NCBI GenBank assembly: GCA_021816895.1
Contig: JAKAWW010000001.1
Coordinates: forward strand, 310,001-374,000
Direction: 5' to 3'
Source of the DNA: Microcaldota archaeon
GTDB taxonomy: Archaea > Micrarchaeota > Micrarchaeia > Micrarchaeales > Micrarchaeaceae
Length of the DNA: 64,000 nucleotides
Shown: piece by piece, positions 15,402-57,674 of the stretch
Layout of the letters: each line of letters begins with the position of its first letter
How positions within the stretch are numbered: position 1 is the stretch's first letter
Notes under the pieces: generated by a model
The model's input: only the letters and a program-made list of their open reading frames with translations
The model's database searches: none
What the model was told of the DNA's origin: nothing
Translations under genes and position numbers: made by a program

Positions 15402-16034
15402 ATGCTGATAGCTTTTGAAGGCATAGACGGCTCGAGCAAGACCACCCAGATACGCCTATTGCATGAATATCTTGACAAGGAATCTATAGACAACGTGGTC
15501 ACAAGCGAGCCTACTGAAGGTGCGACGGGCAAGCTGATAAGGAGAATACTTAAAAAGGGGAAGCCTTTTGATGTCACTGCAATGCAGCTGCTCTTTACCG
15601 CTGACAGGGCCTACCACGTTAATTATTTCATAAAAGAGTGGGACAGCGCAGGCAAGTTTGTGCTCTGCGACAGGTATATTTTTTCGACGCTTGCATACGG
15701 GAGCGCATCCGGCTTGAACAGGCAGTGGCTTTACAAGATAAATGAGCAATTCCCGTTGCCCGACATGACCATAGTACTGGACATATCCCCGAGGCTTGCA
15801 ATGAAGCGCATTCATTCCAGAATGGAAGAATACATAAAGAACCCCCAACTCATAGGGAGCGATACGCGCAAGTCAAAAGTATCTCTTTATGAGAAGCTCG
15901 GCTTCCTGTCAAAGATAAGGCTTATATACAAGGACATGGCAAGCGAGTACCGCAATTATTTCATTGTAGACAGCAGCGCAAGCCAAGGCGAAGTGCACGA
16001 CAGAATAGTTTCCATAATTGAGAGCAATATATAG
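15402..16034 (+). CDS. tmk: Thymidylate kinase
   Basis: This enzyme phosphorylates dTMP to dTDP for DNA synthesis. It has the N-terminal P-loop region IAFEGIDGSSKTTQ, the TSEPTEGATGKLIR substrate loop, LLFTADRAYHV and the DRY motif in LCDRYIFSTLAYG. The P-loop has Ser where the Gly before Lys is almost always found, an unusual change in a key motif. Length (210) and all other motifs are normal, so the protein is probably active. The ATG follows an AT-rich divergent promoter region. Confidence 0.9.
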   Translation: MLIAFEGIDGSSKTTQIRLLHEYLDKESIDNVVTSEPTEGATGKLIRRILKKGKPFDVTAMQLLFTADRAYHVNYFIKEWDSAGKFVLCDRYIFSTLAYGSASGLNRQWLYKINEQFPLPDMTIVLDISPRLAMKRIHSRMEEYIKNPQLIGSDTRKSKVSLYEKLGFLSKIRLIYKDMASEYRNYFIVDSSASQGEVHDRIVSIIESNI

Positions 16035-16130
16035 CCAAAGGCATACTATGGAAAGATTTAAAAGCTTATCGATAAGTTTGCAGCTACCTTTAAATATAAA
16101 AAAAGCAATATACCTATTGGGTGGGTTGCG

Positions 16131-17837: not shown

Positions 17838-17890
17838 AATGCATGGCATATCTATTTTAAAGCTTACATGCATAAAGCTACTGTGGGTGC

Positions 17891-19015
17891 ATGGCAGAGA
17901 GCTTTCATGTAGATCCTTACAAGGTAGAAGGCAGGATAGACTATGAAAAATTTGCCAAAACATACGGCATGCAAGAAATTGACGGGCAGCTTGAGAAGCG
18001 GTTGCTGAAATACACGGGCACGCTTCATCCCCTACTTAGAAGGCGCATATTCTACGCACACAGGGAGCTCAACTGGCTGCTTGACGAATACGAAAAGGGA
18101 AACAAGTTCTATATCTATACAGGCATAGCGCCTTCAGGCACGATGACACTAGGCCATCTCATACCTTTCATGCTTACCCAATGGCTCCAGGAAAAGTTCG
18201 ACGTTGATGTGTACATACAGATACCCAACGAGGAAAAATTCCTTGCAAAAAAAGATCCATCGCTGACGCTTGAGAAAATACAGGAGTACGCCTACGACGA
18301 TGCGGCTACAATAATGGCGCTTGGTTTCAAGAAGCAAAAGACAAAGATATTCCTTGATACCGAATATGCCAAGACGCTGTACAAGCAGGCTGTGCGCGTC
18401 GCTAAGCATATAACGTTCTCGATGATTAAGGATGCCTTTGGGTTCACTGCGGAGACAAACATCGGCGCTATATTCTATACGAGCATGCAGGCCGTTCCCG
18501 CATTCCTAAAATCTGTGGAAGAAGGACATAATGTGCCATGCCTGATTCCGCTTGCAATAGACCAGGATGTGCACTTTCGCATAGCGAGGGATGTGATGTC
18601 GAAGCTTGGCTATTACAAGCCCTCTATAATATATGCAAAGTTCCTGCCTGGATTATCCGGAAAAGCCAAGATGTCGTCAAGCAACACGCTTGACACAATA
18701 TACCTTAACGACACTCCTGAAACTATTGCAAAAAAGATACAGCGCGCCTATACTGGCCAGCAGGCTACCGCAGAACTGCAGCACAAATATGGCGGCGATC
18801 CAGAAAAATGCGTTGTATGCCAGTACTACAAATACATCTTTGAACCCGATGACCGGAAGCTCAATGCAATATTTGAAGGCGAGCGCAATGGCACGCTGCT
18901 TGCAGGCGAGCACAAGCGCGACCTTACGGAGCGCGTGACAAAGTTCGTGAGCCACCTGCAAAACAGGAAGGAGCACATGCGCAGCGAGCTAGGCAAGTTC
19001 ATTGTCAATGATTGA
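17891..19015 (+). CDS. trpS: Tryptophanyl-tRNA synthetase (archaeal/eukaryotic type)
   Basis: This class I synthetase charges tRNA-Trp. It has the eukaryote/archaeal N-terminal motif VDPYKVEGRIDYEK, the HIGH-equivalent PSGTMTLGHLIPF and the KMSKS-equivalent AKMSSS. The 374-residue length is normal. GGTG lies directly before the ATG at 17891. The flippase gene starts at or just after its stop, so the two are likely co-transcribed. Confidence 0.94.
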   Translation: MAESFHVDPYKVEGRIDYEKFAKTYGMQEIDGQLEKRLLKYTGTLHPLLRRRIFYAHRELNWLLDEYEKGNKFYIYTGIAPSGTMTLGHLIPFMLTQWLQEKFDVDVYIQIPNEEKFLAKKDPSLTLEKIQEYAYDDAATIMALGFKKQKTKIFLDTEYAKTLYKQAVRVAKHITFSMIKDAFGFTAETNIGAIFYTSMQAVPAFLKSVEEGHNVPCLIPLAIDQDVHFRIARDVMSKLGYYKPSIIYAKFLPGLSGKAKMSSSNTLDTIYLNDTPETIAKKIQRAYTGQQATAELQHKYGGDPEKCVVCQYYKYIFEPDDRKLNAIFEGERNGTLLAGEHKRDLTERVTKFVSHLQNRKEHMRSELGKFIVND

Positions 19016-39594: not shown

Positions 39595-39669
39595 GCTCCC
39601 ATCGTCTAGCCCGGTCAAGGACACAGGCCCTTCGAGCCTGGAACTCGGGTTCAAATCCCGGCGGGAGCA
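39595..39669 (+). tRNA. tRNA-Glu (anticodon TTC)
   Basis: This cloverleaf has acceptor bases GCTCCCA and CGGGAGC with a mismatch at position 7:66 (A-C), D arm GTCT/GGAC, anticodon stem CAGGC/GCCTG with loop CCTTCGA (anticodon TTC), and T arm TCGGG-TTCAAAT-CCCGG. The discriminator is A. Position 33, nearly always U, is C here. The last four bases, AGCA, form the beginning of the 14-base direct repeat that flanks the integrated element. Confidence 0.9.
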
Positions 39670-39692
39670 CTTCCAAAATGGGGTTATATATA
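39666..39692 (+). repeat. Left element end: target-site repeat plus terminal inverted repeat
   Basis: AGCACTTCCAAAAT (39666-39679) is the left copy of the direct repeat and overlaps the last four bases of tRNA-Glu. It abuts the terminal inverted repeat GGGGTTATATATA (39680-39692) without a gap. Confidence 0.8.
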
Positions 39693-39710: not shown

Positions 39711-40706
39711 TTATATTGGAGACTTTACTAGTTTATCAACTTCCTTTACATATTTGTCTTTTAATTCGATGGCTTCTAGCCTAATCTTTTTAAAATGTGT
39801 AAAAGCAGGGCCATCTAATTTCTCTTTTAGTTCTTCATATTCTCTTTTAAGATCTGAATTTGAAATTATTTTTGAATATATGTTTGGCCATGACTCTTTC
39901 TTACAAGAAATAAGTGTATCAAATAACGCTGTCTCTAAAATTTTATTTCCATTGGTAATCTTGTCCAATTCTTTTATTACATTTATGTAGGCTTCATACA
40001 CTCTTGGCACGAGCAAGTTAAAATCTACACAAAAACCATCAATCAGACCCTGAGCTTTTTCTCTGTCTTGCTTTGAAGCCAGCCTCTGATCTGCAAGTCC
40101 TATTCTAATTTTTAATCCTTCTTTGTTGTACCAGTGCATCCCTTCTTTATTATTTAAGTCCTCCTCTATAAATTTTATGTCGGGTAGTTCTTCCACACAA
40201 TAAATTGGGAGATAAGTGAATTCTGTGCGTATTGGTTCTCTTATTAGATCAAACGATGCGGTTTGGATAGCCCGTTTAATTTTATATAATATCCCGATAA
40301 GCACTATGAGAGGCAATAAAAGAAACACGAAAGACAATGACAAAAATAACAAGGCTATATCTGTCTGTAGATTTAACTGCGTGAGTTTTATGGGTAGTGT
40401 TATAAAGTTAAAAGAGGGAAGGGCAAAGATTGTAAAAATTAAAGAGAATATAAAGAAGGCTTCAATAAGTATAAATTCAATAACAAATTTATTCTTGAAT
40501 TCTTCTTCAAATATGTTGCTTATATAATTGAATAGGATAGGCATAAATGGTATTAGAAATCCATCAATGTACAACATTATGTGTAATTCATTATTCAAAG
40601 AAGATATACTTGAGGAAACGAGAATTGCTATAACCGTTCCCACTATAGCAAAAAACAGTGAAGTCAAATAAAGTTCTAGTCTTCTAGAAGTATTTATAGC
40701 AAGCAT
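39711..40706 (-). CDS. Hypothetical membrane protein with C-terminal soluble domain (element gene)
   Basis: No family is recognised. Four hydrophobic helices occupy roughly residues 10-165; the remaining ~165 residues are charged, helical and probably cytoplasmic. It is rich in Ile, Phe and Lys, with AT-rich codons unlike the backbone genes. It is the gene closest to the left end of the element and is last in the minus-strand series. Confidence 0.55.
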   Translation of the reverse strand: MLAINTSRRLELYLTSLFFAIVGTVIAILVSSSISSLNNELHIMLYIDGFLIPFMPILFNYISNIFEEEFKNKFVIEFILIEAFFIFSLIFTIFALPSFNFITLPIKLTQLNLQTDIALLFLSLSFVFLLLPLIVLIGILYKIKRAIQTASFDLIREPIRTEFTYLPIYCVEELPDIKFIEEDLNNKEGMHWYNKEGLKIRIGLADQRLASKQDREKAQGLIDGFCVDFNLLVPRVYEAYINVIKELDKITNGNKILETALFDTLISCKKESWPNIYSKIISNSDLKREYEELKEKLDGPAFTHFKKIRLEAIELKDKYVKEVDKLVKSPI

Positions 40707-40745
40707 TCAACTCCCTTTTTATATGTGCCTTGACTTGAGTTTTGC

Positions 40746-41537
40746 TTATTTTTTAAATTCATTCAAGTACCTCTCTACAATCGTTTTTGTAGTGGGACTC
40801 AAAACAATATCTGAGCCTGATTTCCAGAACGCTAAATGGTGAACATCGCGATGATTAGGCCTGGGTTTACCTTCTGCTTCAATCAAAAATACTTTATGCA
40901 GATTCCTAATCCTTCTGCCATCATCTGGTTCATCATATTCAAATAGATATTTACAACTTGTTGCTCGTAATCCTGTTTCCTCTCTTAGCTCCCGTATAGC
41001 TGCCCTTTCTCTACTTTCCCCCCTATTTGCACCTCCACCTGGTAGCAGCCAAGTTTTATGATGAGATGCAATAAGTATTCCCTTTGGAGTATCCACTATT
41101 GCCGTACCACGTCTCCTTACAATTTGAGATTGCATATTTTCAGTTTTCAGTTTATTTTTATCTACAATTTTTAATGTATACAGATAAGTAGTTACTGGAT
41201 AGGAATACTTTCCACCATATGTTTGTCCTTGCATTATCTTTCTAAGTGTTTTTTTCTCAAATTTGATATTATTTATAGGAGTAGTTAACCAATATTCTTT
41301 ATGCAATTTATTTAGTTGGTCAATAAAATTTTTTATTCTAATTTTACATATTCCTTTAGATATCCTAAACGTGCACTTATATACCGTTGTAGGATCATAG
41401 TAAATACGAACAACTGCTTCTTTTATTGATATTGTTTGTTCTATTTTCTGACCAGCCCAAGTCCATTTTCTATGATTCCAGCTTTTATATAGGTGCTCCT
41501 CCTTAGGATGCCATAAAAAGAAATTGAATAAACCCAT
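40746..41537 (-). CDS. Nudix hydrolase with an uncharacterised N-terminal domain (element gene)
   Basis: The C-terminal half contains a complete Nudix box GANRGESRERAAIRELREET followed by GL, so it likely hydrolyses a nucleoside diphosphate linked to another group. Residues ~1-135 are an unrecognised, lysine- and tyrosine-rich domain, unusual for the family. The ATG at 41537 is preferred because GTGAT lies just before it; a GTG at 41546 is the alternative. The gene is AT-rich and part of the minus-strand series in the element. Confidence 0.75.
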   Translation of the reverse strand: MGLFNFFLWHPKEEHLYKSWNHRKWTWAGQKIEQTISIKEAVVRIYYDPTTVYKCTFRISKGICKIRIKNFIDQLNKLHKEYWLTTPINNIKFEKKTLRKIMQGQTYGGKYSYPVTTYLYTLKIVDKNKLKTENMQSQIVRRRGTAIVDTPKGILIASHHKTWLLPGGGANRGESRERAAIRELREETGLRATSCKYLFEYDEPDDGRRIRNLHKVFLIEAEGKPRPNHRDVHHLAFWKSGSDIVLSPTTKTIVERYLNEFKK

Positions 41538-41545
41538 AAATATCA

Positions 41546-41668
41546 CTATTTGATTTTACCTATAACTTTGTTGTAAGACCAATCCGCTTTCCTTCTCTTA
41601 TATGTTTCTGTATTATATCACAGCGTTGATTTATTTATACCTAACCTTTTGTAGTCTTGGGGTGTTAG
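41546..41668 (-). pseudogene. Decayed duplicate of the Cas1 C-terminal tail
   Basis: Minus-strand translation reads LTPQDYKRLGINKSTL, then an in-frame stop where the other copy has Trp, followed by degraded sequence. It matches the tail of the Cas1 fragment at 42447-42947 (LTPQDRKRLGINKSTLW). At DNA level 41621-41668 and 42525-42572 differ at only about five of 48 bases, so the duplication is fairly recent and this copy is broken. Confidence 0.75.
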
Positions 41669-41696
41669 AATTGGGTAAATGTTGAAAATGAAACTA

Positions 41697-42098
41697 TTAG
41701 ATAACATGAAAAATAATATACAAAATAATAATTACCACTATGATAATAATAATTACCACTATGATAATCCCGGCAATTTTTGCTAAAAATAGTAAAATAC
41801 GCTTGACAGCGCTCATCGCCCAACGAGCCTGTACTCTTGGATATCTGTATTTATGGTTTATATACTGTGCTTTAAGAGGCCTTTGAAAAGAAACGTTATA
41901 TTTGGCTAATTCAATTTTACTATAATTTACTAGGATTTGTCTTATTTTCTGCCTGGTATTGTGGCCCTTTAACCCATGTGATTTGAAGACTCTATGAGAA
42001 AGATTGATTATTGCTCTATTCAGCTCGTTTTCGTCTAAATTATTATGATTGTATTTGATGTATTTCTTGATCCAAAGCTTTGCATAGATAAGTTTCAT
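41697..42098 (-). CDS. Hypothetical basic protein with C-terminal membrane anchor (element gene)
   Basis: No family is recognised. The first ~105 residues are basic and helical and may bind nucleic acid or a membrane surface. The last ~30 residues are an almost pure Ile/Val hydrophobic segment (GIIIVVIIIIIVVIIILYII), a tail anchor. At DNA level this segment contains an imperfect tandem repeat (AATAATAATTACCACTATGAT twice, near 41726-41765). It lies 6 bases downstream of the 111-residue membrane protein gene. Confidence 0.5.
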   Translation of the reverse strand: MKLIYAKLWIKKYIKYNHNNLDENELNRAIINLSHRVFKSHGLKGHNTRQKIRQILVNYSKIELAKYNVSFQRPLKAQYINHKYRYPRVQARWAMSAVKRILLFLAKIAGIIIVVIIIIIVVIIILYIIFHVI

Positions 42099-42104
42099 AC
42101 GATC

Positions 42105-42440
42105 TCACAGATAGAGGATTCCGAAACCAAATGCAAAACCAATTACGTATAAAATGGTGCCTAATTTCCAATCTCCAACACTTAGTATTATTCCAAGTGT
42201 AATTACTATCCCAACTACAAATATTAAAATTCCATACCAGAATAAGTTAGTATAGCAGCTTGACGCAGCTAACGACCCACTCGGCGCAGTAGAAAAGGTT
42301 TTACATAACATATTCATTATTGTATACAGAATGCCTGTTTCAGAAACATCTTGTCCAGTAGTTAGTTTTATATGTGCCAAAAGGCCATCTACAAAACCTG
42401 TGCCAATGACTACCGATATAACTTTATCACTTTTACTCAC
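42105..42440 (-). CDS. Small membrane protein with cysteine-bearing loop (element gene)
   Basis: This 111-residue protein has an N-terminal amphipathic or hydrophobic region and two clear C-terminal membrane helices (LFWYGILIFVVGIVITLGI and the final LYVIGFAFGFGILYL). Two cysteines flank the middle loop. No family is recognised. It starts 6 bases after the Cas1 fragment's stop, so it probably shares a transcript with it. Confidence 0.5.
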   Translation of the reverse strand: MSKSDKVISVVIGTGFVDGLLAHIKLTTGQDVSETGILYTIMNMLCKTFSTAPSGSLAASSCYTNLFWYGILIFVVGIVITLGIILSVGDWKLGTILYVIGFAFGFGILYL

Positions 42441-42446
42441 TATTAT

Positions 42447-42947
42447 CTACCTATCTATCTTAGAAGCAACTTTATCATAAATCTTTATTTTCTTTCCCTC
42501 TTTTATGTGCCTCTGCATATACCACAGAGTTGATTTATTTATACCTAACCTTTTGCGGTCTTGTGGCGTTAGGCTAAGCACCTTACTGCGAATGTCTGTA
42601 CTATCAACCCTGTTTATCTTGAACTCAGGTATATCGAATTTAAGCTTGCCAGACCTGCCTATTATGTAGCTTGCAAGCAACCTGACGTTTTCATACAGAA
42701 TGTTCTGGTAGCTGTAATATTTGCCGTTGTATAACGCCCTTGCGTTGAAGTTCTGCTTTATCGTCTCAATCAATGCCTTTGCAGTATTCTCTCTTAGCCT
42801 TATGTTGTAGTTCTCTGTTACGATAAAATCAGCCTTCTTCAGCTTCTTTTCCTCTAATAGTTGTATCACTGACAAGTCGACCAACCACCTATAAAGCTCC
42901 TGGATGTCATAAACAAGCGATGCCCTGCTGTTTAATAACTCGTGCAA
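42447..42947 (-). CDS. cas1: C-terminal half of a Cas1-family integrase (truncated; casposase-like)
   Basis: The frame reads FLHELLNSRASLVYDIQELY and on to RWLVDLSVIQLL and DFIVTENYNIRL, the conserved C-terminal half of Cas1 including the His and the Asp/Glu metal ligands. It ends with a helix-turn-helix-like tail (LGINKSTLWYMQRHIKEGK). Upstream the frame continues as EVRKYINSVGLDPSIS to 43001, then meets a stop, so the first ~150-180 residues with the remaining catalytic Glu are missing. The listed start is TTG. In a tRNA-targeted element with terminal inverted repeats, a casposase origin is likelier than a CRISPR locus, of which no array was seen. Confidence 0.75.
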   Translation of the reverse strand: MHELLNSRASLVYDIQELYRWLVDLSVIQLLEEKKLKKADFIVTENYNIRLRENTAKALIETIKQNFNARALYNGKYYSYQNILYENVRLLASYIIGRSGKLKFDIPEFKINRVDSTDIRSKVLSLTPQDRKRLGINKSTLWYMQRHIKEGKKIKIYDKVASKIDR

Positions 42948-42981
42948 GAAGCTTATTGATGGATCAAGGCCAACAGAATTA

Positions 42982-43401
42982 ATGTATTTCCTAACTTCGG
43001 ATTACAAAACGGGCAAAGAATACAGTGAAAATACACAATTTTATTGGAAACCGTTCTCAGAATTCCTCTTTGGCTACATGGATCATAATGATAACAAGTA
43101 CGATGGAGAGATAGGAGAGCTAAGAAGGAAACAAATCATTATCAATGACATTGAACACATCGGGAAAGAGTCAAATAACCTTGAAGAAAGCGAGGTTATC
43201 GGTGTTTCAGATAACGATTACGTTATCTATGATAACAAAATGGAGCAGAAGATAACGGATATTATCAAGAATATGACAACGAAAGACGCTAAACGCATCG
43301 GATTATCAAAAAGGCAGTTGTTCAGGTTGAAGAAAAAGATAAAAGAAGGAAAGAAAATAGTATTAAAAAGGAAAACGATAAATAAATTGACAACGATGTA
43401 G
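42982..43401 (+). CDS. Hypothetical protein with Cas1-tail-like C terminus (element gene)
   Basis: The last ~45 residues (TTKDAKRIGLSKRQLFRLKK, then KIKEGKKIVL) resemble the helix-turn-helix-like tail of the Cas1 fragment on the opposite strand (PQDRKRLGINKSTLWYMQRH). The acidic N-terminal ~90 residues match nothing I know. It might recognise the same DNA ends as the integrase, for example as a regulator or a trans-acting end-binding protein. Its 5' end overlaps the upstream remnant of the Cas1 frame on the other strand by about 20 bases. Confidence 0.5.
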   Translation: MYFLTSDYKTGKEYSENTQFYWKPFSEFLFGYMDHNDNKYDGEIGELRRKQIIINDIEHIGKESNNLEESEVIGVSDNDYVIYDNKMEQKITDIIKNMTTKDAKRIGLSKRQLFRLKKKIKEGKKIVLKRKTINKLTTM

Positions 43402-43423
43402 TGATAGCAAACTAGGTAACATT

Positions 43424-43732
43424 ATGGCAAATTACAAATGCAAAGTTTGCGGGTATAAATGCAATACAGAAGAAGAAATGAGAGCTCATATTGCGAGTAA
43501 ACATTCAAAACTGCTTAAGACAAAAGGCAGAACTGCAAATCCGTTTATAAAGATAATAATTATCCTTCTAGCAATTCCTTATGCATTTATCGTGATGATT
43601 GCCTTTTTCGGCATAGGTAATCCCAATAGCACCCCTCTACAGATAGGAATAGATTTGTCGATTTCAATATCTCCGATCGTAATAATTTACATAGGTTATA
43701 AGCTGTCTCAAAAGGAGAACGAAAGAAATTAA
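43424..43732 (+). CDS. C2H2 zinc-finger protein with two membrane helices (element gene)
   Basis: The first ~26 residues form a classic C2H2 finger (YKCKVCGYKCNTEEEMRAHI, then ASKH). A lysine-rich linker leads to two hydrophobic helices (residues ~42-66 and ~74-92). The combination suggests a membrane-tethered DNA-, RNA- or protein-binding module, seen in some archaeal mobile elements and viruses. The gene sits between two others on the plus strand, with 22- and 18-base gaps. Confidence 0.65.
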   Translation: MANYKCKVCGYKCNTEEEMRAHIASKHSKLLKTKGRTANPFIKIIIILLAIPYAFIVMIAFFGIGNPNSTPLQIGIDLSISISPIVIIYIGYKLSQKENERN

Positions 43733-43750
43733 TTAAAGCCTAGTGATATT

Positions 43751-44806
43751 ATGCCACAATGGAAAAAAATTCGGTTACCTTCCATTAACAAAGAAACGGA
43801 AAGGTTTTATTTGACAAATCTAATAGCATTTGAAATTTTTCTACTGATTTCTATATTTACATTAGTACAAGTTTACGGCATTTCAGTTCCAAAAGCAGTC
43901 TTATCAGGTGCGATTGCTATAGGTATAATCGGCATAGGTGGGATACTTGTAATGTCCTTTATAATGCGCGATAGTTTTTTGATCACAATCTTCTTTTTTC
44001 TTATAGTGCTAACGATAATTCTGAGCACACTTATTTTGTTATTGCCATTGTTAAATTTTATACCATCTAATAATTCTATACATGCACAGTATAACGTAGT
44101 TTTTCAAAACAACGCAACACATCTCAATGTAAATGTCAAGGCAATAGCACAAACCGAAAGCAGTAATCTTGGTAGTGGATACGGACCAGCTTATCTGCTA
44201 AATGGTCTTACAAATAATGGCTATTGGTTTCAAGCGGGGCTTGGTTATAATTTTAATTATACGAATAATAAAAACGTGGATAACTATAGTGGATTCAGAT
44301 TTATCTATGAGGTTTGGAACGTTTCTACTGATAAACCACTGAATATTGGTTGTGGCTATCAAGCGTGTGTTAAAAATTTTGTTGGGGTTGTTAACAATAA
44401 CGATACAATATTATTGAACATGTCTATAATTGGTAATAAGGTTATACTTTCTGCATACGATACAAATACAACAGCAAGAAGCCCCGCTATAAATATTACC
44501 TCTTATGGTGCCCGTTTCTTTACTTCCAACCTTATCAATGGAAAGTATTTTAGTGGTTTAATGACTGAGTGGAGGTGTATTGGTGGAACTAATTTTACAC
44601 AACGTAGTGTTTACTCTATAATATATCCTAAGACTAATATAATGTATTACATTTCTATTGATAATGAAACAAATAATCTTTGCAAGCAACAAGTTTTAAA
44701 TAAAATTATAAGCCCTTCTGAGAATGTTGAACAATGTGGAACACAGTTATATTATTATTTAAACCATTCAATTACAATAAACGGCAGTATACGTTGTCCA
44801 AACTAA
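43751..44806 (+). CDS. Membrane-anchored protein with glycosylated extracellular domain (element gene)
   Basis: Three hydrophobic helices in residues ~20-100 precede a ~245-residue extracellular, beta-rich domain with many Asn residues and NxS/T sequons and six cysteines. It may be a surface or exclusion protein of the element. No family is recognised. Codon use is AT-rich, unlike backbone surface proteins in this window. Confidence 0.55.
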   Translation: MPQWKKIRLPSINKETERFYLTNLIAFEIFLLISIFTLVQVYGISVPKAVLSGAIAIGIIGIGGILVMSFIMRDSFLITIFFFLIVLTIILSTLILLLPLLNFIPSNNSIHAQYNVVFQNNATHLNVNVKAIAQTESSNLGSGYGPAYLLNGLTNNGYWFQAGLGYNFNYTNNKNVDNYSGFRFIYEVWNVSTDKPLNIGCGYQACVKNFVGVVNNNDTILLNMSIIGNKVILSAYDTNTTARSPAINITSYGARFFTSNLINGKYFSGLMTEWRCIGGTNFTQRSVYSIIYPKTNIMYYISIDNETNNLCKQQVLNKIISPSENVEQCGTQLYYYLNHSITINGSIRCPN

Positions 44807-44917
44807 AAAAAGGTTGAAAAGCTCATTTAAGAGTTTTGTTGGTGTAGTCTTTCATCATTGACCCTCTCCTGTGCTAAAACTATTTTAGAATCCTGCCTCT
44901 AAGAAACATGGAATTTA

Positions 44918-44943
44918 TCGACGACAAAAATCGCTGTCGTCGA
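44918..44943 (+). other. Hairpin near the right end of the element
   Basis: TCGACGACA and TGTCGTCGA form a perfect 9-bp stem with an 8-base loop, about 30 bases inside the right terminal inverted repeat. The rest of 44807-45104 has no gene. The hairpin could be a recombination, replication or termination signal. There is no T-run after it on the plus strand. Confidence 0.5.
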
Positions 44944-44970
44944 AGAAAATAGGGGGACATTTCTTCAATC

Positions 44971-44998
44971 TATATATAACCCCAGCACTTCCAAAATG
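44971..44998 (+). repeat. Right element end: terminal inverted repeat plus target-site repeat
   Basis: TATATATAACCCC (44971-44983) is the exact inverse of the left terminal repeat. It abuts the right copy of the direct repeat AGCACTTCCAAAAT (44984-44997). Confidence 0.8.
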
Positions 44999-45104
44999 AA
45001 TAATAGGCACCAAGCCGAAGGTTGCTTATTGTTCTCTACTTCAGAAAAGAATAATCTGCAAAGGAATATAGGTTTTTGCACCCAAAATTAATTGGGGTGT
45101 AATT

Positions 45105-48246: not shown

Positions 48247-48729
48247 ATGCGCACGCTGAAGCTGCAGAGCGCTATGGAGTATTTGATGACCTACGGCTGG
48301 GCCATATTGATAATAAGCATAGCGCTGAGCGCGCTCTACATGATGGGGCTATTTAGCCCTAGCTCTTATGTGTCTAGCACATGCATATTCCCTGCTGACT
48401 TTAGCTGCCTCGAGGACTTTATGAGCACCTCAGGCGTGCTAACAATAAACATAGAGCAGTCTACCGAGGCACCGATAGATATCACGGGGATAGGCTGCAA
48501 TTCAAACGTGTCCTTGGCACACATGACCTCATATGTGGGGAGCAGTGCAATATACGTGCCCATAGGCGGCAATTACTCTTTTGGAAGCGTGCAGTGCTAT
48601 AGCGGCAGCGGGCCTTATTCAGGCAGTGTCGGAAGCATATTCCATGGCTATGTCATAATGAATTACACGGATCTTCAAACCGGCTTTCCCCATACCACCG
48701 TAGGCACACTGGTCCAAAAAGTGAGCTGA
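48247..48729 (+). CDS. Pilin-like protein with class III signal peptide
   Basis: The N terminus, KLQSAMEYLMTYGWAILIIS, is a type IV pilin-like class III signal with a ~20-residue helix, followed by a ~130-residue extracellular domain with four cysteines and several sequons. It is similar in its first 40 residues to the kelch-repeat protein at 16131, so both are probably processed by the same prepilin peptidase and displayed on the surface. Function beyond that is unknown. Confidence 0.7.
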   Translation: MRTLKLQSAMEYLMTYGWAILIISIALSALYMMGLFSPSSYVSSTCIFPADFSCLEDFMSTSGVLTINIEQSTEAPIDITGIGCNSNVSLAHMTSYVGSSAIYVPIGGNYSFGSVQCYSGSGPYSGSVGSIFHGYVIMNYTDLQTGFPHTTVGTLVQKVS

Positions 48730-49471: not shown

Positions 49472-51694
49472 TCATGTAAGGTCCATGTTCAATGTAATTT
49501 TTGGTTTTGCTTCTATTTTTATCTCTTTTATTATGTGTTTTTGCCTGTTCAGCGCCTGTATGGTGTAATGCTTGCCATTTAGAAGCCTTAGTTTTATGGC
49601 TTCATCGTTTTTCTGTGGCACTCTATATGTGCCTAAGCACTCTCCCAAAAATATCACCTTTACAAAAGCTGCGGCATTTTTCCCTTCTGCTTCATGTTGC
49701 ATCAAATAAATTTCTGTTTCTATAGGCTGTGGTATCACGTAGCCAGTGGTAGTCTCTGCTATAGGGCCAATAGAATTGTTAGCATCGTATTTTGCTATGA
49801 TCTGGTATCCAATGGTATGTATGAACACCGTATCATGTGGCACCTTTGCGTTGCCATCAAGCGTCACATAGCTCAGGGCTCCAATGTTAGATTCAAGCAT
49901 CTTGATCTTTAGGGTTGTATTGTCATCATCGGCAAGGGCAAAGGCAAGGTCTTTCACGGCTAGCGGCGCTATATCTGCGGCCTGCCTAAAATAAAGCTTT
50001 AACTGGCAGAGCCTTCTTATTCCGCTTTCTATGTCACTTGCATTGTGCGCCAGCATTATCAGGCCTATCCCTTGTTTCCTAAAATCCTGTATCCTTTGCT
50101 TTATGTCCTGCACCGCAGTAGAGTCGCGGTTTCCAAAAATTGTCTGAGCCTCTTCAAGGAATATGGCAAGCCTTAGCTCATTGTCCCCATTGGTATCAAA
50201 ACTTGATGCTATTGCGTATACCTGGTTGAGTATGAGCGCATAAAGGTATTGCTTCGTGCTTGTGCTGGCATTTGATATGTCGAATACCACTCCACCTTCA
50301 AGCAGTTCCTCTATAGAAATGCCCTCCTTGGCTGCATACTCTGGCCTTCCAAGTATCGCCCTAAGATTCTCCAATGCAGACTTTATGTTTTCGCCGTGCT
50401 TTGTATATTTTATCCCGGCATTGGTTCGTTTTGCATGCAGCTCAATTATTGATTCCTCTATGCTATCATAAACATCTACAGGATCAGGAATATCTGTGTT
50501 GCCATATACCTTCCGGAATGCATTTAACATGCATTTTTCCATTGGGTTCTGGTAAGGGCCTGCATCTGCCGCCGAAGCCAGGATCATCGCAAGGTTCTCA
50601 TAGAACTTTTCCTTGCTTATGCACTCTGGCCTCCTGAAGAAGTTCAGCGGCACAGCATCTTTGTAGAGCCTTACCAGGTGCATTTTATGTGCTCTTGCAA
50701 AGCCCGACCATTCGTCTGTTGGAGATATTATGATCATTTTTGGCCTGGACTGCCTGCGCAGCAACTGATCCGCTATAACCATCGCTTCTGTGGTTTTGCC
50801 CATACCTGGAAGACCCGTAATTATAAATCCCAAATTGAGTAGCGAGCTGTCAATTTCAATACTCATTTCTGTTGTTTTTACGCCATTGCTTACAAAATAA
50901 CCCAGTTTGAGGTCTCCTTTTGCCTCTGGTTCGAGCGTGCGCACCATGTAGTTAATTTTCATATTTCCGTTGAAGCATATTAGTGTAGAAAGATATTTTG
51001 GTCCAAAAGGAAGCGCAATATACCTGTTTAAATGCCATAATTCTGCCATCTTGAAGTTTTTGATCCTATTGCTGCTCAATACAAGGAACCTCGATTTTAT
51101 ATAATTGTCCAATATCTGATTTCCATGCGCTATTACAATGAAAAGCTTATAGGATACCCCGCCGCCGAGTATCGCCTCATTGACAAGGTTTAGCATGCTA
51201 CTTAAGGCAAGTGTCTCTTCTGAATCATCATACACCTCTCTTTGCGTCGAGCGTGTGCTCCTGCTTCCAATCGAGCTTTGCGGCTCTGAGCTTGTTTCGC
51301 GTACCTTTTTACTGCTCAAAATCCGCTCTATGAACTCTTTAGAGAACGACAACTCTTTTTCAGTCGCAGGTATAAATGCGACTATTGCAAAACCTTCGAG
51401 AAGCGGCAGGTTGAAAATGTCTTGGAAGGCATGGTTTGGGTCATTGCTATAGAAGGATATTATGTCTGCATTGAATTCGCTGTTTGATATAGAATTGGCG
51501 TGCAGAAGTTTCATCCCTTTTATAAAGCTTTGAATAAGCTGAACCTTTACTTCATGGTTTTCAGAAATGCCTATCAATGTGGAACGCTCTGCAAAATCAT
51601 ATGCAATTGCGAATGGTCCGCCCATCATCGCGTCGAAAATGGCTCTTTTGTCAATTTCACTGTCAGGAATACTGCCGACTCTATAAAACTCCAT
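49472..51694 (-). CDS. VirB4/HerA-class ATPase (CedB-like) of the DNA-transfer operon
   Basis: This 740-residue protein has an N-terminal ~280-residue domain, then a HerA/FtsK-fold motor: Walker A GLPGMGKTT near residues 293-301, Walker B LAIFLEEAQ near 511-519, and the following QRIQDFRKQGIGLIMLAHN typical of VirB4/TraC-type ATPases. A ~110-residue C-terminal addition follows. It likely powers assembly or DNA movement. It abuts the small membrane gene upstream (one base apart) and is last in the operon. Confidence 0.75.
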   Translation of the reverse strand: MEFYRVGSIPDSEIDKRAIFDAMMGGPFAIAYDFAERSTLIGISENHEVKVQLIQSFIKGMKLLHANSISNSEFNADIISFYSNDPNHAFQDIFNLPLLEGFAIVAFIPATEKELSFSKEFIERILSSKKVRETSSEPQSSIGSRSTRSTQREVYDDSEETLALSSMLNLVNEAILGGGVSYKLFIVIAHGNQILDNYIKSRFLVLSSNRIKNFKMAELWHLNRYIALPFGPKYLSTLICFNGNMKINYMVRTLEPEAKGDLKLGYFVSNGVKTTEMSIEIDSSLLNLGFIITGLPGMGKTTEAMVIADQLLRRQSRPKMIIISPTDEWSGFARAHKMHLVRLYKDAVPLNFFRRPECISKEKFYENLAMILASAADAGPYQNPMEKCMLNAFRKVYGNTDIPDPVDVYDSIEESIIELHAKRTNAGIKYTKHGENIKSALENLRAILGRPEYAAKEGISIEELLEGGVVFDISNASTSTKQYLYALILNQVYAIASSFDTNGDNELRLAIFLEEAQTIFGNRDSTAVQDIKQRIQDFRKQGIGLIMLAHNASDIESGIRRLCQLKLYFRQAADIAPLAVKDLAFALADDDNTTLKIKMLESNIGALSYVTLDGNAKVPHDTVFIHTIGYQIIAKYDANNSIGPIAETTTGYVIPQPIETEIYLMQHEAEGKNAAAFVKVIFLGECLGTYRVPQKNDEAIKLRLLNGKHYTIQALNRQKHIIKEIKIEAKPKITLNMDLT

Positions 51695-51979
51695 TCAAAC
51701 CACCATAGCAAACTTCATAGACAAAAGCATCAATACTAGACATGCGATAAACGTATACCACAACTTCTTTGGCATAATTGTGCGCCTATGCCTTGCTATC
51801 CCAAAAGAAGCAAGAATGACCGCGGAGAGTGCCACAATGACGTTATCAAAGCTTATTCTTATTGCTGCAAAGAGCAAAATTGCTGTAATGATAAAAACAG
51901 CAGTGGCGCCGCTAAAAAGTGCCGCAAGTGCATATTCCAAGATGTTATTTGACCTGTAAAATGCTTTTATATTGCCCAT
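51695..51979 (-). CDS. Small membrane protein of the DNA-transfer operon
   Basis: This 94-residue protein has three or four membrane helices (YALAALFSGATAVFIITAIL, VIVALSAVILASFGIA, LWYTFIACLVLMLLSM), separated by a basic loop RHRRTIMPKK. Size and topology recall VirB3-type subunits, which precede VirB4 in type IV secretion operons, but sequence similarity is not claimed. The ATG at 51979 overlaps the previous gene's TGA as TGATG and follows GGTGG. Confidence 0.6.
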   Translation of the reverse strand: MGNIKAFYRSNNILEYALAALFSGATAVFIITAILLFAAIRISFDNVIVALSAVILASFGIARHRRTIMPKKLWYTFIACLVLMLLSMKFAMVV

Positions 51980-52170
51980 CACAAAACCACCAGCGACAAT
52001 GTCGCTATGCATGTAATCATGAGCAGTACTGAGCCTAAAAGCAAGCTGCTGCCTGCTTCGCTGGTCCTGCTGCTCTGAGGAAAATGGAGCCTTATAAGGA
52101 TGCCTAGCGACATAAGAAGCATTCCAGCGAATATGCCATCATTTGCAATCTGCTTTACAAACCAAAAAAT
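51979..52170 (-). CDS. Short two-helix membrane protein with probable ATT start
   Basis: The frame encodes two hydrophobic segments (DGIFAGMLLMSLGILIRLHF and LLLGSVLLMITCIATLSLVV) separated by a serine-rich loop. The first ATG (52122) would cut away half of the first segment. Sixteen codons upstream an in-frame ATT (52168-52170) lies seven bases after GGAGG within GGAGGTGATC (52173-52182), a full match to the archaeal 16S 3' end. The stop overlaps the next start as TGATG. The 5' end overlaps the previous gene by 16 bases. Confidence 0.55.
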   Translation of the reverse strand: MFWFVKQIANDGIFAGMLLMSLGILIRLHFPQSSRTSEAGSSLLLGSVLLMITCIATLSLVVL

Positions 52171-52970
52171 TTGATCACCTCCAAGGATCCAGTAGCATGA
52201 ACATAAAGCATTACATACCCAAGCTTGGAATCATAGTATTTCGCGTAATTTGCCAATCTATATTGGTGCTCATTAAGCGTTGCAATCTTAATGTGCCCGT
52301 CATTGACATGGTGCTTAAACCGCTTCATGTCGTTCAGAGCGAAAACTCCATTGTTTTCAATAACTTCCTTTGTTGTGCCTGCATTGCCAATTTTGTATGT
52401 GCCCCGAGCGAGCGCTTCAACAAGCATCTTTTCAGCGATAAAGCCCTCATAAGGCTCGCTATTGCTACTTATTTTGAATCTAGCCTTTGCAGGTCTATTC
52501 TCAGGCATTGTTGCGTTCCCATATGCATAATCGTACTCGTTAAAATACACTAGTATCTTCTTGTTGCTGCTGGCAAAATCGGAGATTTTTACTATAACTA
52601 AAAGTGATGCAGCTCCTATCAGCAGGAATATGAGCCCCGAAAGGTCCCCCAGATAGTAAACATCCAGCGATATCCTGCCATATGCAGAGCTTATCGTAAG
52701 GTTGTTTGCGCCAAATTTCAGAGGCGCAAAAAATGAGGCTGCACCAGTGCCGTTTGTGGTAAATGAAGATGCCACTCCATTCACGGCTACAAGGACCGAA
52801 GCATCTTTGAGTGGCGATCCATCATGTGTCGCGTGCAACAGTACACGGGAGCCATCATTTTTTACCAGTACGCAAAATCCGTTGCAATTGTGAATAATGC
52901 CTGCTAGCAGCATAAAGTGGAAAACATATAATATGTTAAATGCGCCTATGGCCGCCATGACCTCTTGCAT
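52155..52970 (-). CDS. Membrane protein with Ig-like extracellular domain (DNA-transfer operon)
   Basis: A first helix (residues ~8-27) leads to a ~75-residue extracellular region with an Ig/carboxypeptidase-regulatory-like pattern (LLHATHDGSPLKDASVLVAV, then NGTGAASFFAP). A second helix (LSGLIFLLIGAASLLVIVKI) follows, then a ~140-residue cytoplasmic domain. No specific family is recognised. The ATG at 52970 overlaps the previous stop as TGATG. Such a two-helix bridge could link surface parts to the motor. Confidence 0.55.
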   Translation of the reverse strand: MQEVMAAIGAFNILYVFHFMLLAGIIHNCNGFCVLVKNDGSRVLLHATHDGSPLKDASVLVAVNGVASSFTTNGTGAASFFAPLKFGANNLTISSAYGRISLDVYYLGDLSGLIFLLIGAASLLVIVKISDFASSNKKILVYFNEYDYAYGNATMPENRPAKARFKISSNSEPYEGFIAEKMLVEALARGTYKIGNAGTTKEVIENNGVFALNDMKRFKHHVNDGHIKIATLNEHQYRLANYAKYYDSKLGYVMLYVHATGSLEVIKFFGL

Positions 52971-53629
52971 CACTGTTCACCCTTTGCTCCTAGCATATGT
53001 TCTGCGCTTTTTACCGTTGTTTCGTCTACCCCTATAGATTTTAGCAGATTGGTTGCGCCATGTGAAGCGGCAGCACCGAGTACTTCATGTGCAAACTTTT
53101 TGAAGATGCCATTCTCCTTGCTGACTTGCATGTTCAATGCATGGCAGCTGACTAGCTCCCTTGCAAGGGAGACATTTATCCTGTTCAAGGCAGTTACCTG
53201 GTCGGCGAGGTTATCCATGCGCGCTTCCCTGTTGCTGTATATTGCGCCAGTGCTTTCCGAAAGCGCATACGCTATGTAACTGTGCATGCAGCTTAGCTTT
53301 ACATCATAGTCATTTCTCAGCAGGCCTAGCATCGCCATGAATGCCAACAAGTTATCTATGTAAATGTGCAGATCTGGCTTTTCAAAGTAGAATCTATACT
53401 CTATATGCGCCTTTTCAAACGCTATTTCGGCGCTATTCTTCAGCCCTTTTATGTTACATGCTATTTTTGATCCTTCTCTAATGACGGAAATGTGGGGAAG
53501 CATGGCAAGTCTCCTCTTTACTGCTGCGAGGTTCGTCTCCAGCGTTGCGTCAACGTGGAACGAAGAGCATAGCAGCATCCTGCTGCCGTTATCATTTTGC
53601 ACTTTCCGTGGAAAGTTCAGCTTTCTCAT
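52970..53629 (-). CDS. Hypothetical soluble protein of the DNA-transfer operon
   Basis: This 219-residue protein has no membrane helix and no recognised motif. The N-terminal half is mixed alpha/beta and the C-terminal half helical (NLADQVTALNRINVSLAREL). The ATG at 53629 overlaps the upstream ATPase gene by 38 bases; an ATG at 53578 is the alternative. GTGAT six bases before the first ATG supports the longer form. Position between the ATPase and the Ig-like membrane protein suggests a cytoplasmic component. Confidence 0.5.
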   Translation of the reverse strand: MRKLNFPRKVQNDNGSRMLLCSSFHVDATLETNLAAVKRRLAMLPHISVIREGSKIACNIKGLKNSAEIAFEKAHIEYRFYFEKPDLHIYIDNLLAFMAMLGLLRNDYDVKLSCMHSYIAYALSESTGAIYSNREARMDNLADQVTALNRINVSLARELVSCHALNMQVSKENGIFKKFAHEVLGAAASHGATNLLKSIGVDETTVKSAEHMLGAKGEQ

Positions 53630-54731
53630 ACGCTATCACTATCGAAATGTCATCAATCCCTATAGAATAAAGAAATTCAAGTATCCTAGGTCTTTCAATC
53701 TTGAGCATAAGCAAGAGCCTTATCAGCGAAACAAGGTCCAAGCGCCTATTGCTATCCATAACAAGATTGCTTATCTCTGCCTTGGCCTCATCACCCAACG
53801 CCTGCGCAGCATTGAAAAATTTGTTGCTTGGTACATAGACCTGCATTTTATCACCATAGACAAATACAATATCCGTATCAATGCCATCCACATGCGATAT
53901 GCTAAAATGCAGGCCGTTACCATCCTTCTTGTTTTGATGTACTATGCAACTGCCAACCCCAAGGCCCGTCAAGTCTTCCATATCGTGCCCGCTCAGTATC
54001 CCAGCGCTGCTCAGCAGCTTGTAATCATCAGGATTCTGCAGCTTGAAGAGTATTATGCAGCCTGCGTTTGCAATTACTGCGTTGTTTATGTCTGATGCCA
54101 TCTGGGTGGTTATTACCATGCTTATCCCGTATTTTCTTCCTTCTCTGAACAGGATTGATATCTCGCTAGAACTAGAGACCGACTGCCAGGCCTCATCTAT
54201 AAGGATCATTGTATCTCCATGCTTGTCCAGGCTAATTTCGTGCATTGCGCGTATTACTGCAATCAGCAAGGCCTTGCTTGCTATTGCCTTTATCTTGGAA
54301 TCCCTTAGCTCCGACATGTCTATGCAGATGCTATCCCGCAATAGCTCTGTATCCAGCCCTAAACTTTTCACTAAAGCGGACCATTTCTCTACATTATCTA
54401 AGTCGCCGCTAAGGCGCAGCCGCTTGCCTCCGATAAAATCCACGGTTTGCGCGTATTCTCCGCTCCAGTCTATTATAAGCAATGTATAGTTGTCGCATAT
54501 AGTAGCCCTGAGCGCCATGCTCTTCGCCAAGTAGGTTTTGCCTGAGCCGGTCATGCCTATTATTGCAACATGTGGGTTTACGTTGCCATGCAGGTCAAGC
54601 AAGAATGGTACCCCATAAATTGCGGTCCTTCCTATGTATATGCCTCTTTGTTCGCCATGCGGCTCAGACATTGCGTCTAAGCATGCACTACTACTTGCAT
54701 ACCTCGCATTTGAAAGGCTCCATATGGCCAT
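53592..54731 (-). CDS. HerA-like ATPase, second motor of the DNA-transfer operon
   Basis: This is a HerA/VirB4-superfamily ATPase of 379 residues. It has a short beta-rich N-terminal region, Walker A IGMTGSGKTYLA near residue 70, LLIIDWSGEY just after, Walker B TMILIDEAWQ, and the sensor VITTQMASDI. It is shorter than the 740-residue partner and carries a ~90-residue helical C-terminal part. It may act as a coupling protein or second motor. The ATG at 54731 follows GGTG by six bases; a GTG at 54740 lies within that motif. Confidence 0.75.
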   Translation of the reverse strand: MAIWSLSNARYASSSACLDAMSEPHGEQRGIYIGRTAIYGVPFLLDLHGNVNPHVAIIGMTGSGKTYLAKSMALRATICDNYTLLIIDWSGEYAQTVDFIGGKRLRLSGDLDNVEKWSALVKSLGLDTELLRDSICIDMSELRDSKIKAIASKALLIAVIRAMHEISLDKHGDTMILIDEAWQSVSSSSEISILFREGRKYGISMVITTQMASDINNAVIANAGCIILFKLQNPDDYKLLSSAGILSGHDMEDLTGLGVGSCIVHQNKKDGNGLHFSISHVDGIDTDIVFVYGDKMQVYVPSNKFFNAAQALGDEAKAEISNLVMDSNRRLDLVSLIRLLLMLKIERPRILEFLYSIGIDDISIVIAYEKAELSTESAK

Positions 54732-54743
54732 GCAATGCACCGA

Positions 54744-55460
54744 TTAAGCGCTAATGCCTATTGCTTCAAGGAGCTCTTCGCCGCTTAGCTCCTTTGCGGC
54801 ACTTCCTGTGATTGCGCCGAAGTCGCCCATCAATTCGCGCAGTTGCCTCTTGGCAGCTTCCTCTGCAGCAATCCTGTTTTGGGCTGCTGCTGTAGTTGCT
54901 ACGTATCTTATCAGCTCCTTTGGGCTGCTGCTATTGATCGTCTCGATATCCTTGTTTATGGCTTCAATCTCCCTTTTCAACGCGCTTCTCCTAGATTCAT
55001 ATTTTGAATAGCCTGCAAGCCTTCCGAGCTCTAGCTCCTTTGCAGCGCGCTTTGTCTTAAGCTCGCCTAGCACCTTCTCTGCCCTGACATTTTTTACATG
55101 CATTACTATCTTGAATGGAAAATCTGTTTTCGCTATAATTTTCTCTATAATATCCCTGTCTATGGGCTTTGAAGCCCCTTCAACCAGCGCAGCAGAAGTT
55201 GCGCTGAATGCATAACCTTCGCGTTTTATGGCTGCTTCCCTGCTTCCCCCAAGCTCGTATCCGTTGCATACTTCAACAAGGCCGCTGTGCGAGAATATCA
55301 GCGCTTCCACCACGTACCACGACTTAAGTGCTACAACAGCTATTATAGTTGAGACTGCGCAAAGCGCTATAAGCCACGCATTGAGGAACGCTATCCCAGC
55401 AGCGAGGGCTAGCAAAGCAATGGCGAGCAGAATTATTGGTATTATGTTATCTTTTTTCAT
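54744..55460 (-). CDS. Two-helix membrane protein with cytoplasmic coiled coil (DNA-transfer operon)
   Basis: Two hydrophobic helices (residues ~7-26 and ~28-46) precede a cytoplasmic domain of ~190 residues with a charged coiled-coil segment (residues ~125-180, including SRRSALKREIEAINKDIETI). No family is recognised. The start overlaps the stop of the VirB6-like gene by 4 bases (ATGA), so translation is coupled. The coiled coil may contact the ATPase encoded next. Confidence 0.55.
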   Translation of the reverse strand: MKKDNIIPIILLAIALLALAAGIAFLNAWLIALCAVSTIIAVVALKSWYVVEALIFSHSGLVEVCNGYELGGSREAAIKREGYAFSATSAALVEGASKPIDRDIIEKIIAKTDFPFKIVMHVKNVRAEKVLGELKTKRAAKELELGRLAGYSKYESRRSALKREIEAINKDIETINSSSPKELIRYVATTAAAQNRIAAEEAAKRQLRELMGDFGAITGSAAKELSGEELLEAIGISA

Positions 55461-56515
55461 AGATATCCCAGTCGCAGCGAAGTGATAAACTCGGATCCCA
55501 ATGCCCTGCTAAGCTCCCTTATGCTTATCACAGTTAGCGCTATGCTGAGCAGCGGCAGCAGGAACACCTCCACTATGAGCATTGCTATGATGTTTGACAG
55601 CTTGACGAATATGCCAAGCAAGCTTGACACCAGCGATTTTGCCATAGAAGAAATGCCCTGCAAGATGCCGCTGGTATTGTTGGTGCTGTTCGATGTGCTA
55701 AACATCTGTGTGTCTATGCCAGCACTCTGGCCAGTACTGTTGAGGAGCGATACAAGCGAGGTGATTGCGGTGCTGCTTGCATATGTAGAATAATTTGACA
55801 CAAGCACGGCGTTGAATACGTATGTCAGTGGCAGCACGCAGAAAAGCCCTATTGCGATAGCCATGATGGCGCCGCCAAGCCTGCGCGTAAAGTACACTAT
55901 ACGCAGCACCATGCCGACAGGAAGCATTATCGATATTGCCGAAACCGCTATGAATTTGAGCAGAATTGCTTGCGCCTCTATGCCTATAATTGCCGTAGTT
56001 AGCATCGATATGAGCCTGCTGAATTGTGCAAGTAGCGGAGAGAATAACGAGGCGAGCGATATGCCTATAACAAAGCTAAATTTTATTGAGCTGAGCAGTG
56101 CTATCGCTGCATAAACAGAAGATACTGAAAGCAGCATCTCCATAGATATGCTCAGCAGCGACTGGTATGCCGTGCCGTTTATCGTCACGGTGGATGCTCC
56201 AGCAAGGTACTCGTAAGCGAAGCATATAGCAGGATTTGAAGCCAGCATCTGCTCGCATGCTGCGTTGATCTGCAACCCTGACATCATGCTGCTTATCAAT
56301 GTGCCTATAAGCCCGTTCTGGGTAAAAAGCACGAATATAATGCCTAATACGGCGCCGTTTATCGCGGTCTGCAAAAGCTCGTTCTGGCCGAATTCCTTCA
56401 GCCTTTTATCCCCAATAGCAAAGCCTATGCCCAATATTATGCCCCCTGCAGATATCATTATCGAGAGCAGCACAATTGCTATCGTGTACATACCCGCAGG
56501 CAGCATCCAGCACAC
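55457..56515 (-). CDS. VirB6/CedA-like polytopic membrane protein
   Basis: This 352-residue protein has about seven or eight membrane helices, with a long extracellular Ser/Thr/Asn-rich loop in the C-terminal half (including STSNSTNNTSG) and two cysteines in an early loop. Topology, size and position between a VirB2-like pilin and VirB4-class ATPases match VirB6/TrbL or CedA channel subunits. Identification rests on architecture and context, not strong sequence identity. Confidence 0.6.
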   Translation of the reverse strand: MCWMLPAGMYTIAIVLLSIMISAGGIILGIGFAIGDKRLKEFGQNELLQTAINGAVLGIIFVLFTQNGLIGTLISSMMSGLQINAACEQMLASNPAICFAYEYLAGASTVTINGTAYQSLLSISMEMLLSVSSVYAAIALLSSIKFSFVIGISLASLFSPLLAQFSRLISMLTTAIIGIEAQAILLKFIAVSAISIMLPVGMVLRIVYFTRRLGGAIMAIAIGLFCVLPLTYVFNAVLVSNYSTYASSTAITSLVSLLNSTGQSAGIDTQMFSTSNSTNNTSGILQGISSMAKSLVSSLLGIFVKLSNIIAMLIVEVFLLPLLSIALTVISIRELSRALGSEFITSLRLGYL

Positions 56516-56519
56516 CTGT

Positions 56520-56882
56520 CTAGCTTACGTTTGTGAAATTGCTGAGCAGGTGCGTCGATGCAAGTGCAAGCGAAGTCGACGCAACGCTTAGCGCCCCTAC
56601 AACTATTGCGCCTATGATTATGTTTATCGAAGCTGTATGGAAATTTGCCTTCTTGTCAGGAGGCAGCATCTGCCCCACGGCGTAGAATATGCCTGCCACT
56701 ATGAACAATACTGCGCTAAGCGCCGGCCCAACCTGTGAAAGCACAACCTTTAGGCTGTTTATCGTAGTAAGTATCTGCACGCTTCCTGCTACTGTCGTCC
56801 TGCTGGCAAGCATTATTGCAAGCATCGGTATTGCTATATACTTTATCGCTATGTTAGCTACATGTTTCAACTTATAACCCAT
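56520..56882 (-). CDS. VirB2/CedA1-like pilin subunit
   Basis: This 120-residue protein has a hydrophobic basic-started N-terminal segment (possible signal, ending near A-S-R-T-T-V-A-G) and then two membrane helices (VGPALSAVLFIVAGIFYAVG and INIIIGAIVVGALSVASTSL) separated by a short polar loop PPDKKANFHTA. That hairpin after a signal is the hallmark of VirB2/TrbC conjugative pilins and CedA1-like proteins. GGTGG lies four bases before the ATG. It is the first gene of the operon. Confidence 0.62.
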   Translation of the reverse strand: MGYKLKHVANIAIKYIAIPMLAIMLASRTTVAGSVQILTTINSLKVVLSQVGPALSAVLFIVAGIFYAVGQMLPPDKKANFHTASINIIIGAIVVGALSVASTSLALASTHLLSNFTNVS

Positions 56883-57491: not shown

Positions 57492-57506
57492 ATGCTTGCC
57501 ATACAT

Positions 57507-57579
57507 TGCGATTGTCGGGATTTGAACCCGAGTTTTTGGCTTGGAAGGCCAAAGTCCTACCAGGCTAGACTACAATCGC
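57507..57579 (-). tRNA. tRNA-Gly (anticodon TCC)
   Basis: This is a complete cloverleaf of 73 bases. The acceptor GCGATTG/CAATCGC is perfect, the D stem is GTCT/GGAC, the anticodon stem TTGGC/GCCAA has loop CTTCCAA (anticodon TCC), and the T arm is TCGGG-TTCAAAT-CCCGA. The discriminator is A and there is no intron. It lies 15 bases upstream of the tRNA(CAT) gene on the same strand. Confidence 0.95.
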
Positions 57580-57674
57580 ATGCATGATACTCTTTTACTT
57601 GCACCTTTTTTATACTTTTGCAAGCAGTGCAATAAAAATAGCTATGTAAAATGCAGTGGTAATGTGTTTCAGCA

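Follow-up and report, generated by a model that had tools for sequence, protein, structure and literature searches.

The window analyzed here, a stretch of 64,000 nucleotides, belongs to the 928,770-base single-contig genome of a Micrarchaeota archaeon (phylum Microcaldota in the taxonomy, its relatives being named Candidatus Micrarchaeota). Its minus strand carries a nine-gene operon at positions 49472-56882, and all nine genes were found in the list of open reading frames (ORFs), as follows.

g1, 56520..56882, minus strand: 120 aa, predicted VirB2/CedA1-like pilin with a signal-like N-terminus, a two-helix hairpin and the basic loop PPDKKANFH
g2, 55457..56515, minus strand: 352 aa, polytopic, putatively VirB6/CedA-like by place and topology
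g3, 54744..55460, minus strand: 238 aa, transmembrane (TM) hairpin plus predicted VirB4 N-terminal-domain fold
g4, 53592..54740, minus strand: 382 aa, VirB4/CedB-type ATPase domain without the N-terminal domain
g5, 52970..53629, minus strand: 219 aa, soluble core protein matching no family
g6, 52155..52973, minus strand: 272 aa, membrane-anchored with an extracytoplasmic insert, described from position and topology
g7, 51979..52170, minus strand: peptide with two TM helices, probably starting at ATT and then 63 aa long (47 aa in the listed ORF, 51979-52122)
g8, 51695..52012, minus strand: 105 aa, small three-TM protein, described from position and topology in relatives
g9, 49472..51694, minus strand: 740 aa, putative second VirB4/CedD-like ATPase

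From g1 to g9 the joints measure +4, -4, +3, -38, -4, +32, -34, and 0 bases, taking g7 as the listed ORF. Moreover, a single frame runs from g3 through its stop and one spacer codon into g4, as another does from g8 through its TGA into g9. The listed extent of g7 was revised. While the listed ORF encodes 47 aa, the g7 proteins of relatives have 56-73 aa, and the frame stays open in the 5' direction to an ATT at 52170, 2 bases past a perfect ribosome-binding site GGAGGTGATC (52182-52173). Since translation from this codon would yield 63 aa that align with the g7 of relatives, the gene probably spans 51979-52170 and starts with ATT. The two TM helices agree with the two-helix peptide originally predicted here.

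The g1-g9 order is repeated in loci of relatives (L034, L036, L038, L041, L042, L044, L046-L049, L051, L054, and others), among which the small genes were placed by position and topology. These relatives belong to two families of the same order, with g9 identities of 34-47%, and include, from the family of the window genome itself, Ca. Micrarchaeum harzensis (989,838-base genome, L046; PMC8975820). Strong homologues of g9 occurred in about 70 of 99 genomes of the order, and the gene was present in 104 of 161. Of these 161 genomes, 96 had both g2 and g9, 42 had neither, and 23 were discordant (Fisher p = 4e-18, a value not corrected for kinship), and in the 51 genomes that are at least 90% complete the respective numbers were 37, 11, and 3. 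This co-occurrence holds even when the genes are unlinked, as they are in 41 of 95 genomes where g2 and g9 do not lie within 9 kb of each other. Since 38 of these 41 have the two genes on different contigs (the other three have them on one contig, 70-314 kb apart), the unlinking derives partly from assembly gaps. Some genomes carry the set as separate blocks that lie far apart (e.g., g1-g4, g1-g7, and g8-g9). The recurrence of the gene order in two families, together with the co-occurrence of g2 and g9, indicates that the operon is more than a chance arrangement, and the predicted minus-strand unit of real, tightly packed genes with an order conserved among Micrarchaeota was confirmed. The g9 tree keeps the two families apart at the minimum number of changes, which fits vertical inheritance, and judging from these sequences the operon looks vertically inherited. 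Outside the order, among other orders of the class, a core was found as g1-g4 (L085 and L092), g1-g5 (L086-L088), or g2-g5 (L093), with a longer g4. As for incomplete sets, an 814-kb single-contig relative (L098, genome G024) has g1-g4 and probable g5 and g6 but no g9, and in other orders (L089, L094, and L095) a short pilin-like gene of 81-84 aa lies beside or near a lone g2-like gene, in what appears as a smaller variant.

The protein encoded by g1 matched the Pfam family T4SS_pilin (PF18895) with an E-value of 1.1e-5 and 25.8 bits, slightly below the cut-off of 26.6, and TrbC with an E-value of 2e-3, while its homologue in L085 matched TrbC at 2.8e-6, at the cut-off of 27.9 bits. It is 46-65% identical to its counterparts in relatives, and its profile gave no match in the PDB. 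These family matches agree with the proposed VirB2-like pilin, to which we assign g1 at the sequence level. Directly after the pilin gene, g2 encodes a protein with eight predicted TM segments and the conserved signature LPxGxVLRxxYxTRxLGG, whose family was found class-wide and whose profile matches the tandem paralogues of a second T4SS-like locus (E = 9.9e-38). On the other hand, g2 matched nothing in Pfam, in the PDB by fold or in the PrgH profile, and its own profile retrieved only ABC-transporter noise from the PDB. Because of these null results we infer a VirB6/CedA-like channel solely from place and topology; the place, the topology and the paralogue arrays agree with the original prediction.

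The main motor appears to be split over two genes. Although g3 had been described as a two-helix coiled-coil protein, its prediction goes further: a membrane anchor joined to a domain that folds like the N-terminal domain of VirB4. When its AF2 model (pLDDT 87.8, pTM 0.67) was compared with the PDB by Foldseek, the top nine matches were all TrwK/VirB4 (probability 0.99-1.00, E-values of 3.6e-3 to 7e-2, TM-score (TMq) 0.39-0.42) and the subsequent ones were unrelated. Since no match passes an E-value of 0.001, the assignment leans on this unanimity as much as on the score. The reading of g3 as a VirB3-like hairpin plus a VirB4 N-terminal domain had been proposed from the sequence before folding, and the VirB4 matches then came. 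The g3 profile also aligns weakly to PrgJ 97-202 (15%, E = 0.0018). Single-sequence searches found no match, Pfam and NCBIfam gave scattered weak ones (the best being CedB at 0.003, in 2 of 26 members), the sequence retrieved only coiled-coil noise from the PDB, and the PrgI profile gave nothing useful. By its size and topology, the hairpin may correspond to VirB3.

The product of g4 has the motifs GMTGSGKT (Walker A) and LIDEAW (Walker B). The best NCBIfam matches were CedD (1.3e-16) and CedB (1.8e-15), with g4 reaching 60 of 600 bits, far under the equivalog cut-offs, and hhalign placed it on the ATPase half of PrgJ (431-766; 99%, E = 2.6e-18). The g4 homologue in L093 matched CedB at 4.6e-28, in an alignment that starts at CedB residue 251, and the g4 proteins of other orders score higher against CedB/VirB4 than against the repair HerA. 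On this family ranking we rejected a repair HerA, so that of the HerA ATPase originally predicted the ATPase stands, while its affinity lies closer to VirB4/CedB. Joining g3 to g4 raised the scores in three of four cases: in L093 the CedB score was 109 bits (100.5 for a shuffled-g3 control), in the window the CedD score was 69.0 (58.2 for the control), and in L088 the joined sequence scored 3-4 bits above g4 alone, a comparison made with no shuffled control, whereas L087 showed no gain. Both domains of a VirB4-family ATPase are present on separate chains, to judge from the g3 fold and the profiles of g4 and g9, and since g3 would supply the N-terminal fold and g4 the ATPase half, we read g3 and g4 as a VirB4/CedB equivalent on two chains, bearing in mind that the TM-scores of the g3 model are modest. 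A haloarchaeal plasmid (L114, P0002, positions 2334-6025) encodes a DUF87 ATPase together with a two-helix protein and a protein of 353 aa, possibly the N-terminal part of a VirB4 on its own; this 353-aa protein was considered as a counterpart of g3 and rejected, as it does not align to g3.

With the motifs GLPGMGKT (Walker A) and FLEEAQ (Walker B), g9 aligned to PrgJ 260-748 by hhalign (96%, E = 2e-9) and to g4 (E = 1.4e-14), and its best Ced match in NCBIfam was CedD (4.4e-6, far under the equivalog cut-off). The claim of a VirB4-class ATPase was therefore borne out, and by its sequence we classify g9 as a second, VirB4/CedD-like motor restricted to the order, outside of which it was found in only three genomes of the phylum sample, all from one family. 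Two motors are indeed present, but they do not separate this operon from Ced, as had been supposed, because CedB and CedD are both known there (PMC11868833). When superposed on the N-terminal domain of VirB4, those of CedB and CedD are reported to cover different portions of it (PMC11868833), and the PrgJ ranges aligned by g3 (97-202) and g9 (260-748), the outer parts of which are uncertain, recall this complementarity.

None of g5-g8 matched any known part. Neither g5 nor g6 corresponds to a Pfam family. Relatives, other orders and the second locus all keep g5 in the same position. The g6 protein had been predicted to bear an Ig domain on two helices, and an extracytoplasmic insert is present in the window; in most relatives, however, the protein shows one or two helices at its N-terminus and lacks such an extracytoplasmic domain, and we rejected the insert as a core feature and regard it as lineage-specific. 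The gene g8 lies directly upstream of g9 in relatives too. Its size fits the VirB3 once proposed for it, yet it matched neither VirB3 nor PrgI in Pfam, and that identity found no support.

Beyond the window, genes were looked for family by family and locus by locus. Profile searches of the genome with positive controls found no relaxase (PF03432, the only relaxase family searched), VirD4 coupling protein (PF02534), NurA (PF09376), or ComEC (PF03772). The two components expected of a conjugative element, relaxase and VirD4 coupling protein, are therefore missing as searched, and the operon sits in the chromosome, in agreement with the original prediction of a chromosomal machine without a relaxase.

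The pilin family, the VirB4/CedB/CedD motors and the g3 fold sustain the general reading of a type IV secretion/Ced-like apparatus. It is further favoured by the complementary PrgJ ranges of g3 and g9, the core in other orders, the co-occurrence of g2 and g9, the g9 tree, and the lack of matches to the relaxase and VirD4 families searched, in which it resembles Ced and Ted (PMC9905601). We consider it somewhat likelier than an even chance that this is a chromosomal, vertically inherited T4SS of the Ced/Ted kind, most likely for Ced-type DNA transfer. Pilins from g1 would build a VirB2-like pilus upon a membrane channel made of g2, the main motor would consist of the membrane-anchored N-terminal half g3 and the separate ATPase g4, g9 would act as a second, CedD-like motor, and g5-g8 may be structural or gating partners. 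The cargo would most likely be single-stranded DNA, moving more likely inward as in Ced and feeding homologous recombination. We infer the channel role of g2, the assembly, the cargo, the direction, and the partner cell: our best guess is DNA import, since the motors are similar to CedB and CedD and the set is chromosomal and lacks a relaxase, like Ced and Ted (PMC9905601). Against this reading count the NurA search without a match in the genome, NurA being the nuclease proposed to make ssDNA (PMC9905601), the null results of g2 in the PDB fold search and against PrgH, the modest TM-scores of g3 with its weak VirB4 profile match and the joined L087 sequence that gained nothing, and the unmatched g5-g8.

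The Ced system of Sulfolobales (CedA, CedA1, CedA2, CedB, CedD, and CedE) is likewise chromosomal, with a VirB2-like pilin, a polytopic channel candidate, no relaxase, and two VirB4-like motors, and among archaeal families CedB and CedD match g4 and g9 best. Here, however, the CedB equivalent is split, g5-g8 are extra, the genes form one operon, and NurA was not found in the genome; DNA import is predicted. Ted of Thermoproteales (TedA, TedB, and TedC) also has a pilin with a signal-like N-terminus beside a polytopic gene, a chromosomal location and accessory genes nearby, but compared by description, Ted loci contain HerA, ParA, and in some cases Rad50 (PMC9905601), of which ParA and Rad50 are missing from this operon. 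MPF_FATA conjugation (PrgH/PrgI/PrgJ of pCF10) and the Patescibacteria T4SS share the pilin family PF18895 and a VirB4 ATPase profile-related to g4 and g9, whereas g2 gave no match to the PrgH profile and g3 none to that of PrgI, and the relaxase and VirD4 families are absent here. With TrwK/VirB4 of R388, g3 shares the N-terminal-domain fold (modest TM-score), VirB4 being one chain in R388 and its equivalent two here. Finally, the nanohaloarchaeal VirB4-containing giants (SPEARE) are also DPANN systems with membrane VirB4-family ATPases, but they are Ig-repeat proteins of about 9,000 residues, with no such giants here.

A less likely alternative is that this machinery serves protein export or contact with the host (secretion of effectors, attachment) instead of moving DNA. 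Micrarchaeota are thought to be host-dependent, a VirB4-containing secretion system was proposed for host interaction in nanohaloarchaea, also DPANN (PMC10266531), and T4SS parts are reported to be essential for epibiont growth in Patescibacteria (PMC12102498); the missing NurA and ComEC and the membrane-anchored g6 with its insert point the same way. However, no effector or coupling-protein gene was recognised beside the operon, no VirD4 family was found in the genome, and the best archaeal matches of the ATPases are the DNA-import models CedB and CedD. As many genomes have no operon, symbiosis in general does not depend on it. Unlikely, in our view, is a machine for DNA uptake peculiar to DPANN archaea, its VirB4 split and membrane-anchored, that would let these host-dependent archaea draw DNA from the host or from neighbours as a template for repair, a source of genes, or nucleotides to feed on.

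T4SS genes usually reside on mobile elements, a tRNA-Gly (57506-57580) lies about 620 bases from g1, and within genomes the operon is found split and relocated. That it is a conjugative element, degenerate or resident (the remnant of a plasmid or an ICE), is nevertheless very improbable: no integrase was noticed among the nearby translated ORFs, GC resembles the surroundings, and most of the order has the operon with its gene order kept. The g9 tree, which follows the two families, and the missing relaxase and VirD4 families led us to reject a mobile-element origin. Hardly credible is a pilus-less DNA-repair or chromosome-segregation pump of membrane-anchored HerA/FtsK-family ATPases, since despite the HerA-family matches of both ATPases and a RadA-like gene upstream of the operon in L088, it disagrees with the pilin family match of g1, the VirB4 N-terminal fold of g3, the CedB/VirB4 ranking of g4 in other orders, and a separate HerA-like gene in the genome (L121).

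Domesticated conjugation machines were described from Sulfolobales, Desulfurococcales, and Thermoproteales by authors who were aware of no others (PMC9905601). With a vertically inherited Ced/Ted relative in the majority of genomes of a DPANN order, their range would reach host-dependent archaea, and this relative may move DNA or proteins between symbiont and neighbouring cells. It would also be a candidate, at the molecular level, for the pili-like connections reported to join ARMAN cells to Thermoplasmatales (PMC5864196), and symbiont-host gene flow would become testable in existing co-cultures, e.g., of Ca. Micrarchaeum harzensis. The split VirB4, in turn, bears on the origin of VirB4, CedB, and CedD. 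Searches of open-access papers (subscription papers and preprints lying outside their scope) found no description of a T4SS in Micrarchaeota, so that its novelty is provisional, and a recent Micrarchaeota genome survey does not mention T4SS in its main text.

Other loci of the same chromosome are worth recording. The second, larger T4SS-like locus (L120, G000:C1:642000-660000, positions 6452-17965) comprises four or more VirB6-like genes in tandem, two genes resembling g3, an ATPase of 505 aa akin to g4, and a g5-like gene, and similar tandem VirB6-like arrays occur in L091, L096, and L097. Within the window, positions 39711-45000 have a GC content of 33-37% compared with 46-50% around them, adjoin a tRNA-Glu (39595-39670), contain mostly ORFs of unknown function and carry a 55-base repeat (89% identical), which makes an integrated element possible. 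At 48247-48729 on the plus strand, 0.7 kb from the operon end, a protein starting MRTLKLQSAMEYLMTYGWAILII resembles the type IV pilin-like proteins that carry a class III signal peptide.
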